64,000 nucleotides of DNA from Comamonadaceae bacterium (lineage in GTDB: Bacteria; Pseudomonadota; Gammaproteobacteria; Burkholderiales; Burkholderiaceae_C). The stretch covers positions 1 to 64,000 of the forward strand of contig SEAY01000028.1 of assembly GCA_004144865.1 (NCBI GenBank), in the 5' to 3' direction. A program made the position numbers and the translations under genes. Under the pieces are notes generated by a model. It was not told the origin of the DNA. It saw only the letters and a list, made by a program, of their open reading frames with translations, and did no database searches. Shown piece by piece: positions 50,076 to 62,964 of this stretch (its first letter is position 1; every line of letters begins with the position of its first letter).

Positions 50076-50192
50076 TGTCATTGCGGGCTTGACCCCGGAT
50101 CAAGTCCGGGGCAGGCTCCGCAATCCATGGATCCCGGGTCAAGCCCGGGATGACAGCCATGGCGTCATTCCCGCGCGGGCGGGAACGACGGA
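50076..50192. repeat. two repeat types between convergent genes
   Basis: One type has the GACCCCGGATC / GTCCGGGGCAGGCTCC hairpin (50091-50119), then CCCGGGTCAAGCCCGGG. The other is a GTCATTCCCGCGCGGGCGGGAACGACGG unit of the common REP-like family (50164-50191). The first type also occurs inside mobA. Confidence 0.8.
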
Positions 50193-59940: not shown

Positions 59941-61056
59941 ATGGCTGAACGCGTGATCCCGCTGGTCGACCAGCGCCTGACGGCGCTGCGCGCGGCCGTG
60001 CCCGACCGGCCCGTGGCTGCCACGGGCCTGCTGGCCGACACGCTCGGCCGGCCGCTGCGCGACCTGCGCATCAGCGTCACCGACCGCTGCAACTTCCGCT
60101 GCAGCTACTGCATGCCCAAGGAGGTGTTCGACAAGGACTACCGCTACCTGCCGCATGCCTCGCTGCTGAGCTTCGAGGAGATCACGCGCCTGGCGCGCCA
60201 GTTCCTTGCCCATGGCGTGCGCAAGATCCGCCTGACCGGCGGCGAGCCGTTGCTGCGCAAGAACATCGAGATCCTCGTCGCCCAGCTGCGCGAGCTGCGC
60301 ACGGTGGAAGGCACGCCGCCCGAGCTGACGCTCACCACCAACGGCTCGCTCCTGGCCCGCAAGGCCAAGGCCTTGAAGGAAGCCGGCCTGCAGCGCGTGA
60401 CGGTCAGCCTGGACGGGCTGGACGACGCCGTCTTCCGCCGCATGAACGACGTGGACTTCCCCGTCGCCGAAGTGCTGGAAGGTATCGCCGCCGCGCGCGA
60501 GGCGGGCCTGGGCCCCGTCAAGGTGAACATGGTCGTGAAGCGCGGCACCAACGACCACGAGATCCTGCCGATGGCGCGCCATTTCCGCGGCAGCGGCATC
60601 GTTCTGCGCTTCATCGAATACATGGATGTCGGCGCCACCAACGGCTGGCGCATGGACGAAGTGATGCCCTCTTCCGAGGTGCGCGAACGCATCGCCTCGG
60701 AGTTTCCGCTGGTGCAGCTCGATCCCTCCGCGCCGGGCGAAACCGCCGAACGATGGGGCTATGCGGACGGCGAGGGCGAAGTCGGCTTCATCAGCAGCGT
60801 GACGCAGGCCTTCTGCGGCGACTGCAACCGCGCGCGCCTGTCCACCGAGGGCAAGCTGTACCTGTGCCTGTTCGCCAGCAACGGCTACGACCTGCGCGAA
60901 CTGCTGCGTGGGAACGCCAGCGACGAGGAGCTCGCCTCCGCCATCGGGCACATCTGGCAGGGACGGGGCGACCGCTACTCGGAATTGCGTGGTTCGCTTC
61001 CGGCTGATGCAAGCACCGGCCGCCGCCGCGTCGAGATGAGCTACATCGGCGGATAA
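59941..61056 (+). CDS. moaA: GTP 3',8-cyclase (molybdenum cofactor)
   Basis: Radical-SAM enzyme for the first step of molybdopterin synthesis. 371 residues. N-terminal cluster [10 protein letters not shown]-terminal cluster [19 protein letters not shown], and the essential C-terminal Gly-Gly (MSYIGG). It is followed by mobA after 7 bases and then moeA. The three genes cover cofactor steps 1, guanylylation, and molybdate insertion. Confidence 0.95.
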
Positions 61057-61063
61057 TCCGCCG

Positions 61064-61702
61064 ATGATCGACAAGGACGACATCACCGGCCTCATCCTCG
61101 CCGGCGGCCGCGGCTCACGCATGGGCGGAGTCGACAAGGGCCTCCAGAACTTCCGCGGCATGCCGCTCGCGTTACACACGCTGATGCGGCTCGGACCGCA
61201 GGTGGGGACCGTGATGGTCAACGCCAACCGCAACCTGTCCGCCTATGAGTCGTTCGGCGCCGAGGTGTGGCCGGACGTGATCTCCGACTACGCCGGCCCG
61301 CTGGCCGGCTTCCTCACCGGGCTGGAGCGCTGCGAGACCGAGTACCTGGTGACGGTGCCGTGCGACACACCGCTCTTCCCGCCGGACCTGGTGGCGCGCC
61401 TGGCCGAGGCGCTGGAGCGCGAAGGCGCCGAGATCGCGATGGCCGCGGCGCGCGAGGAAGACCCCGGATCGGAGTCCGGGGCAGGCTCCCAGGTGCGCAC
61501 GCAGCCGGTGTTCTCGCTGATGAAGCGCGACGTGATGGAAAGCCTGGTGAAGTTTACGCAGAGCGGCGGCCGCAAAATCGACGCCTGGACGGGCGAGCAC
61601 AAGACCGTGGTCGTACCCTTCGATCGCGAAGGCGACGAGCGCTCGGCTTTCTTCAACGCCAATACGCTCGAGGAGCTGCACCGCCTCGAGCAGGCGCCAT
61701 GA
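61064..61702 (+). CDS. mobA: molybdenum cofactor guanylyltransferase, with a repeat inserted in frame
   Basis: 212 residues. Adds GMP to molybdopterin. The N-terminal motif [21 protein letters not shown] is intact, as are the PCDTPLFP metal site and the C-terminal [10 protein letters not shown]. An unusual segment, [11 protein letters not shown] (about residues 133-143), is encoded by a copy of an intergenic repeat. It lies in a loop region before QPVFSLM and leaves the frame open. The gene is probably functional. The stop overlaps moeA as ATGA. Confidence 0.92.
61460..61489. repeat. REP-like repeat inside mobA
   Basis: GACCCCGGATCGGAGTCCGGGGCAGGCTCC nearly equals the intergenic copy at 50091-50119 (GA...AA difference in the loop). 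The 7-base arms CCCCGGA/TCCGGGG form a hairpin. It is read through in the mobA frame. Confidence 0.8.
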
Positions 61703-62964
61703 GCACCATCGCGGAGATCGCCGCGCAGCTGCAGGGCTATGACCCGCAGGCGCTCTCGGCCGAGGATGTGGGCGAGTTCCTGGCGCGCCTGGTGGCGCCT
61801 GTCGACGAGACGGAGAGCGTGGGCGTGTTCGATGCGCTCGGCCGCGTGCTCGCCGAAGACCTGGTCTCGCCGATCAGCGTGCCGCCGCACGACAACTCCG
61901 CCATGGACGGCTTCGCCTTGGCCGGCGCGCAGCTCGTGCGAGGTGCGCTGCAGCTGGAAGTGGTGGGCACCGCGCTCGCGGGCAAGGCCTGGCAGGGCGA
62001 GGTGCGCAGCGGCCAGTGCGTGAAGATCATGACCGGGGCCATCATGCCGGCCGGACTCGATACGGTGGTCCCGCAGGAATTCACCAAGACGCTGGCCGAC
62101 GGACGCGTCGAAGTGCCCGCGGGCCTGCTGCAGCCCGGCGACAACCGCCGCCACAAGGGCGAGGACCTGATGGAAGGCCGCCCTGCCCTGCACGCCGGCG
62201 AACGGCTGGGCCCTGCGGCGTGCGGGCTCATTGCCAGCCTGGGCATCGCGCAGGTGCCGGTGCGCCGGCGGCTGCGTGTGGCTTACTTCTCCACCGGCGA
62301 CGAGATCCTGTCGCTCGGCGAGCCACCGCGCGAAGGCGCGGTGTACGACAGCAACCGCTACACGGTACACGGCCTGCTGACGCGCCTGGGCTGCGAGGTG
62401 ATCGATCTCGGCGTGGTGCGCGACGAGCCCGCGAAGCTGGAACAGGCGTTCCGCGACGCCGCCGCGCGCGCCGATGCCATCATCACCAGCGGTGGCGTGA
62501 GCGTCGGCGAAGCGGACTTCACCAAGGCCATGATGAAGAAGCTGGGCGACGTGGCGTTCTGGAGGATCGCGATGCGGCCGGGGCGGCCCATGGCCGTGGG
62601 CAAGATCGGCGAGTCCGTGCTGTTCGGCCTGCCGGGGAATCCGGTGGCGGTGATGGTGACCTTCCTGGCCTTCGTGCGCCCTGCGCTGCTGCGCATGATG
62701 GGCGCGCGCGTGACGGCGCCGGTGTACCTGAAGGCGAAGAGCGTAGAAGCGATGCGCAAGAAGCCCGGGCGCACGGAGTACCAGCGCGGCACGGTCGTCC
62801 GCACCGAAGACGGTGCGCTGGAAGTGCGCACCACCGGCAACCAGGGATCCGGCGTGCTCAGTTCGATGGTGCAGGCGAATGGATTGATCGTGCTGCATCA
62901 CGACCAGGGCAACGTTGCGCCGGGGGAACTGGTGGACGTGATGATGTTCGACGGTGCGGTCTGA
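61699..62964 (+). CDS. moeA: molybdopterin molybdenumtransferase
   Basis: 421 residues from the ATG at 61699, overlapping mobA; the earlier track frame is a mobA shadow. Inserts molybdate into adenylylated molybdopterin. The motifs are [32 protein letters not shown] and [14 protein letters not shown]. It ends the moaA-mobA-moeA set. Confidence 0.95.

Follow-up and report, generated by a model that had tools for sequence, protein, structure and literature searches.

The mobA insert and the intergenic repeat

The window, by which we mean the entire 64,000-nucleotide stretch analyzed (contig SEAY01000028.1, positions 1 to 64,000), belongs to the draft genome of a Comamonadaceae bacterium (G000; 4.35 Mb in 243 contigs). 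The features around mobA are the following.

59941..61056, plus strand: upstream gene for a MoaA-like radical SAM protein, named by recognizable motifs
61064..61702, plus strand: mobA, molybdenum cofactor guanylyltransferase, 212 aa, identified by TIGR02665 molyb_mobA and Pfam NTP_transf_3
61462..61489, plus strand: repeat-derived insert in mobA, CCCCGGATCGGAGTCCGGGGCAGGCTCC, from ortholog comparison and pattern search
61462..61481, no strand assigned: palindromic core CCCCGGATCGGAGTCCGGGG within the mobA insert, from pattern search and DNA fold
61699..62964, plus strand: downstream gene moeA, named by likeness to a protein of genome G077 that matches MoeA models

The start of moeA overlaps the end of mobA by ATGA. 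The encoded MobA scores 216 bits against TIGR02665 molyb_mobA, well above the equivalog cut-off of 152, and its reading frame is unbroken through the insert. An earlier note on this DNA had described mobA 61460-61489, which reads GACCCCGGATCGGAGTCCGGGGCAGGCTCC, as almost the same as a repeat in the intergenic region near 50 kb, where the following features are found.

50076..50127, plus strand: intergenic relative of the insert, 52 nt, a TGTC-tagged long hairpin TGTCATTGCGGGCTTGACCCCGGATCAAGTCCGGGGCAGGCTCCGCAATCCA with a CCA tail, from DNA folding
50091..50119, plus strand: stretch of the intergenic repeat corresponding to mobA 61460-61489
50128..50155, minus strand: adjoining CGTC-type palindrome TGTCATCCCGGGCTTGACCCGGGATCCA (minus-strand reading), a canonical TGTC palindrome

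The intergenic stretch at 50091-50119 reads GACCCCGGATCAAGTCCGGGGCAGGCTCC, and the likeness holds: the two sequences match across 29-30 nt, the sole difference being in the central spacer, CGGAG in mobA and CAAG in the intergenic copy, which amounts to one extra base and one mismatch. The 50076-50127 element folds as DNA into one long hairpin (-19 kcal/mol, z -5.4), and the adjoining palindrome is inverted relative to it, making the pair a REP dimer. Apart from a longer stem, the element fits the CGTC superfamily of REPs (PMC3733652): TGTC at 50076-50079 is one of the three terminal tags of that superfamily (CGTC, TGTC or CCTC), the stem has AT..AT at its base, the loop, at 5 nt, is within the expected 4-5 nt, and the terminal CCA is unpaired. 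Its stem of about 19 bp with two bulges exceeds the 8-9 bp of CGTC-tagged REPs because an apical hairpin sits on a basal stem. Between genes in the 34364-56356 part of the window there are at least eight more CGTC-tagged REP copies or pairs of the GTCATTCCCGCG..AGGCGGGAATCCAG type, frequently arranged as inverted dimers.

Of the 52-nt element, mobA has the apical hairpin and a portion of the 3' arm only; as DNA, the palindromic core within the insert forms a hairpin of 8 bp with a loop of 4 nt. Neither the tag nor the CCA tail lies beside the insert; it is an internal fragment and by these features not itself a CGTC-tagged REP. The insert encodes PGSESGAGS, nine codons where orthologs have one Gly codon, a net gain of 24 nt and 8 residues. 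The claim that about 10 residues had been added without breaking the frame was right about the frame and too high in its count, the Q among the quoted residues being native in the ortholog alignment.

An AlphaFold model of the window MobA (74 rows) has a mean pLDDT of 89.9, with residues 134-140 below 50. The insert lies at the tip of a predicted beta-hairpin, modeled as a disordered tip between beta strands 124-130 and 144-154, and is probably nearly neutral for MobA.

Frequency and structure of the repeat unit

The first unit, whose exact ends are ambiguous, is about 24-28 nt long and consists of a hairpin, CCCCGGA-N5/6-TCCGGGG, followed by the 3' tail CAGGCTCC. The looser pattern CCCCGGA-N2..14-TCCGGGG matches twice in the window, in mobA and in the 50 kb intergenic region, with 0.01 matches expected from shuffles. 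Mapping of the motif across the 4.35 Mb genome, a check that the earlier note had proposed, gave six occurrences of a tighter pattern and none in the backwards-read control; of 60 genomes from the genus, a Ramlibacter-like group, 15 have the tighter pattern, and the backwards control is empty in all 60. Outside the genus it is rarer: in 401 genomes sampled evenly across the family it was present in 8, one of these being the window genome. GC-rich palindromes are not rare in a GC-rich genome, which is the one point in favor of a chance likeness, but the shuffles and the backwards control reject it.

Copies within genes consist of the apical hairpin and CAGGCT(CC) and nothing more of the element. 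This hairpin-plus-tail piece is also nested in palindromes with differing outer stems and occurs in 23-bp tandem arrays, and thus acts as an independent unit. A second unit, CCTTCGACNNGCTCAGGNCAGGC, has no DNA fold, and a hairpin was accordingly rejected as a required feature. The two units align better than all 5,000 shuffles and have the tail in common; with the shared tail CAGGCTC removed, 1.4% of shuffles score as well. Head-to-tail 23-bp arrays occur for both families, at L136 (G019:C75 3905-3974) and L361 (G031:C2 91004-91095), and the central dinucleotide differs between units of these arrays. A literature search on the repeat sequences themselves found no report.

The mobA site in related genomes

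The segment is absent from mobA in 51 of 53 readable congeners, the sister species included, and no insert was found in 80 named MobA relatives, the nearest of which are from Ramlibacter and other Comamonadaceae, Caenimonas among them. Empty sites mostly read Asp-Gly-x (DGQ, DGN, DGA, etc.), as they do in named relatives outside the genus; the nearest are GAC GGG CAG GTG in G071 and the same with GTC as last codon in G014. An ancestral MobA loop is therefore rejected, the orthologs having empty sites, and together with the controls above this leaves chance likeness or an ancestral loop sequence with a negligible probability. The earlier note had named the same residues in distant relatives as the sign of such a likeness, and the only identical insert is in a congener, G011, whose nearest relatives are empty. 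Its claim of an inserted mobile palindromic repeat stands as to a repeat-derived in-frame insertion from a dispersed family, and falls short in that only part of the tagged palindrome is present.

The two carriers, G000 and the non-sister species G011, lie within one clade of about eight species. In a mobA tree built without the insert columns, G000 pairs with G028 (support 99/99) and G011 with G021 (95/84), and both G028 and G021 are empty. The inserts are identical at 29 of 29 nt, with the uncommon CGGAG spacer and at the same codon, whereas the flanking mobA sequence is 82-88% identical within 120 nt and about 13% of sites differ within 30 nt; at 82% flank identity, 29 of 29 has a P of about 0.003. 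Because these 29 identical bases stand amid less conserved flanks, the comparison suggests that one lineage, if not both, acquired the insert recently.

One ancestral insertion into mobA, cleanly lost again in the majority of descendants, would agree with the placement of both carriers in a clade of about eight species, and a remnant-like tract at the hutH site of G011 shows that decay can occur. However, a single clade of the two carriers is rejected, albeit weakly, by the AU test (p 0.018), the losses would need to have restored the outgroup-like Asp-Gly-Gln several times, and an old insert would be expected to have diverged like its flanks. Sequence comparison thus already disfavors this history, which we consider improbable.

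Lateral spread is less easily set aside: the insert may have arisen once, after which homologous recombination would have carried the filled allele, or just a short tract of it, from species to species, and other shared sites may be alike. The 29-nt identity with the uncommon spacer despite the diverged flanks, and the failure to find any further CGGAG-spacer copy in the genomes of G000 and G011, point in this direction. The differences at about 13% of sites within 30 nt would, however, confine the transferred tract to hardly more than the insert itself, and the CGGAG spacer occurs in copies of G034, G192, G406 and G427, so that this variant may have been captured twice independently; the two carrier genomes fit such a history and a short-tract transfer alike. 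We regard lateral spread as a doubtful explanation, though a good deal more credible than ancestral insertion.

In-frame inserts in other genes

The earlier note had thought such an insertion uncommon, which does not hold for this genus: at least 17 genes carry the first or the related second unit in frame, and in several of these genes different species share the codon that is filled. Loci were found by six-frame reading of retrieved copies, which for the second unit was confined to copies whose locus had been fetched. The first unit is present in dnaG of four species (G075, G032, G073 and G019), in hutH of three (G009, G014 and G030), in an acyl-CoA dehydrogenase gene of G001, in hrpA and tctC of G011, in a TrmA/RlmD-like methyltransferase gene of G083, and in an FAD/NAD-binding protein gene of G075. 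The second unit occurs in dnaG of G004 (DPSTGSGQA) and G069 (DPSSGSGQA), at a codon identical to the first-unit site, in a phzF-like gene at the same site in G004 and G020, and in frame also in genes for DUF993, moeA, purH, truB, lpd, an acyl-CoA dehydrogenase, putA and metG. The moeA insert (RIPSTGSGQAAVLFG) is that of G077 (loci L347 and L353), in a gene that adjoins mobA. The identical dnaG codon is filled by the second unit in two further genera, in one of them by two tandem copies (L380 in G126, encoding DPSTGSGQAPSTSSGQA). L126 and L184 were left out of the count, being near gene starts, readable in an opposite-strand frame and of uncertain start site.

That all copies found are in frame is not in itself evidence, because frame-breaking copies would have escaped recognition; the choice among stop-free frames is. 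In 16 of the 17 genes the frame used is the one that gives the PGSx-type peptide (first unit) or PSTGSGQA (second), and with five stop-free frames available such agreement has a P of about 1e-10 if genes are independent. The exception is metG, where another frame is used in a linker between domains. The left neighbor of filled sites is often GA(C), and also GCC, ATC, GTC, CAT or CCC. The hutH loop varies in length without repeats too. The AlphaFold model of DnaG is of low confidence (pLDDT 65) and weakly places the insert between two strands, in a low-confidence stretch (184-193). The G014 assembly has frameshifts within dnaG and, past the insert, in hutH, which point to base-calling errors.

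Recurrence at single codons

In each of four genes (dnaG, hutH, mobA and phzF) one codon is filled in several species. Both families occur at the dnaG codon: four congeners have the first there, and two congeners plus two other genera have the second. In trees built without the insert columns, a single clade of carriers is rejected by the AU test for hutH (p 2e-6) and in dnaG for the first unit (p 2e-4) and the second (p 9e-4). The three hutH inserts have differing central dinucleotides, CA, AA and GG, which point to separate copies. At the hutH site of G011 (L233) the sequence GAC GCC GGG CAG GCG resembles an earlier insert that has been shortened, and dnaG of G025 and G082 possibly has similar remnants.

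The 26 instances in 17 genes give 20 same-gene pairs, where 0.08 would be expected with 4,000 equal genes and 3.3 with 100. Recurrence at the same codon is more than plain survivorship would produce unless tolerant sites are very few; it reflects either very few tolerant loops, or site-preferring insertion, or lateral spread of filled alleles. Under a target-site preference, the machinery would favor certain DNA or structural contexts, hence the recurrence of the dnaG, hutH, mobA and phzF codons, and survival in loops would act as a secondary filter. The filling of one dnaG codon by both units across congeners and two other genera, the rejected single clades and the differing hutH dinucleotides all agree with such a preference, but the filled sites have no evident common DNA motif. 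We hold it as a tentative alternative, the strongest of those considered.

Search for a mobilizing enzyme

Filled and empty sites of mobA, dnaG and hutH were compared, and no target-site duplication was seen, a small replacement being found instead; nor were terminal inverted repeats matching a transposase found. Of 60 congeners, 58 have a Y1 transposase gene, carriers and non-carriers alike and nearly always as a single copy, and the repeat was beside it at none of the 14 loci read, those of G000 and G011 among them. A link to RAYT mobilization was rejected on these grounds. The RAYT-like Y1 transposase gene of the window genome lies at G000:C160 13727-14023 (L382), with no repeat of these families adjoining. 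No dedicated transposase for the repeat was found in the genomes examined, as is reported for CGTC REPs.

Discussion

The reading that we favor, with a probability of roughly 0.8, is that a REP-like short repeat is dispersed widely and that the mobA copy is an in-frame survivor in a tolerant loop. A unit of about 25-28 nt, part of a TGTC-tagged REP-like palindrome, would have been copied into mobA at the Asp-Gly turn, replacing about one target codon. Copies would enter the genome widely, and selection would remove those that shift the frame or disrupt structured parts; the survivors would be those in the frame that spells a flexible peptide rich in Gly, Pro, Ser, Gln and Ala, placed at the tips of loops that in some cases at least vary in length anyway. 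A bolder proposal, to which we give limited credence, is that two related families in free-living hosts have inserted repeatedly at the same few codons with a true site preference, and would serve as ready-made loop cassettes whose favored frame is a flexible linker.

The scattered carriers and the empty sites in most congeners make gains countable and datable, and tolerated loops mappable. More generally, the inserts show how non-coding repeats can, by simple means, add length to protein loops.

REPs within ORFs are known, many of them in DNA synthesis and repair and tRNA pseudouridine synthase genes, with flexible loops suggested as their location, and different REPs occupy about the same recB site in two Xanthomonas species (Di Nocera et al. 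2013, PMC3733652); the main text of that paper does not mention Acidovorax, Delftia or Variovorax. The intergenic element described here resembles these CGTC-tagged REPs in its TGTC tag variant, in a stem that begins with AT, in a loop of 5 nt and in the CCA tail, whereas mobA has an internal piece only, without tag or CCA tail; same-codon recurrence is here tree-tested, with empty sites in most congeners. It differs from RAYT-mobilized REPs in that the repeat does not flank a Y1/RAYT gene at 14 loci. MITEs are small non-autonomous dispersed repeats able to fuse in frame with genes (reviewed in PMC10969869), and the present repeat is likewise small, dispersed and fused in frame with genes, but without target-site duplication or any terminal inverted repeats found to match a transposase.

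The published analogue with longer inserts is in Rickettsia, whose palindromic elements are described, in the account of Ogata et al. 2000 cited in PMC10969869, as in-frame palindromic repeats within ORFs of unrelated housekeeping genes. Here too the repeat is in frame in unrelated protein genes; the Rickettsia elements, however, are about 70-190 bp and belong to an obligate intracellular alphaproteobacterium, whereas ours are 25-28 nt in a betaproteobacterial host. Different groups of Rickettsia elements (RPE-4/6/7) occupy the same locus of orthologs, and since all orthologs examined were filled, a hotspot and a single ancient origin could not be distinguished there (PMC3767692); most orthologs here are empty. 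What is new in the present system is the free-living betaproteobacterial host, the short tagless unit, the second related family behaving alike, the common frame and the tree-tested repeated gains at single codons, and the question of hotspot or ancient insertion left by Rickettsia becomes testable, possibly in culturable bacteria.
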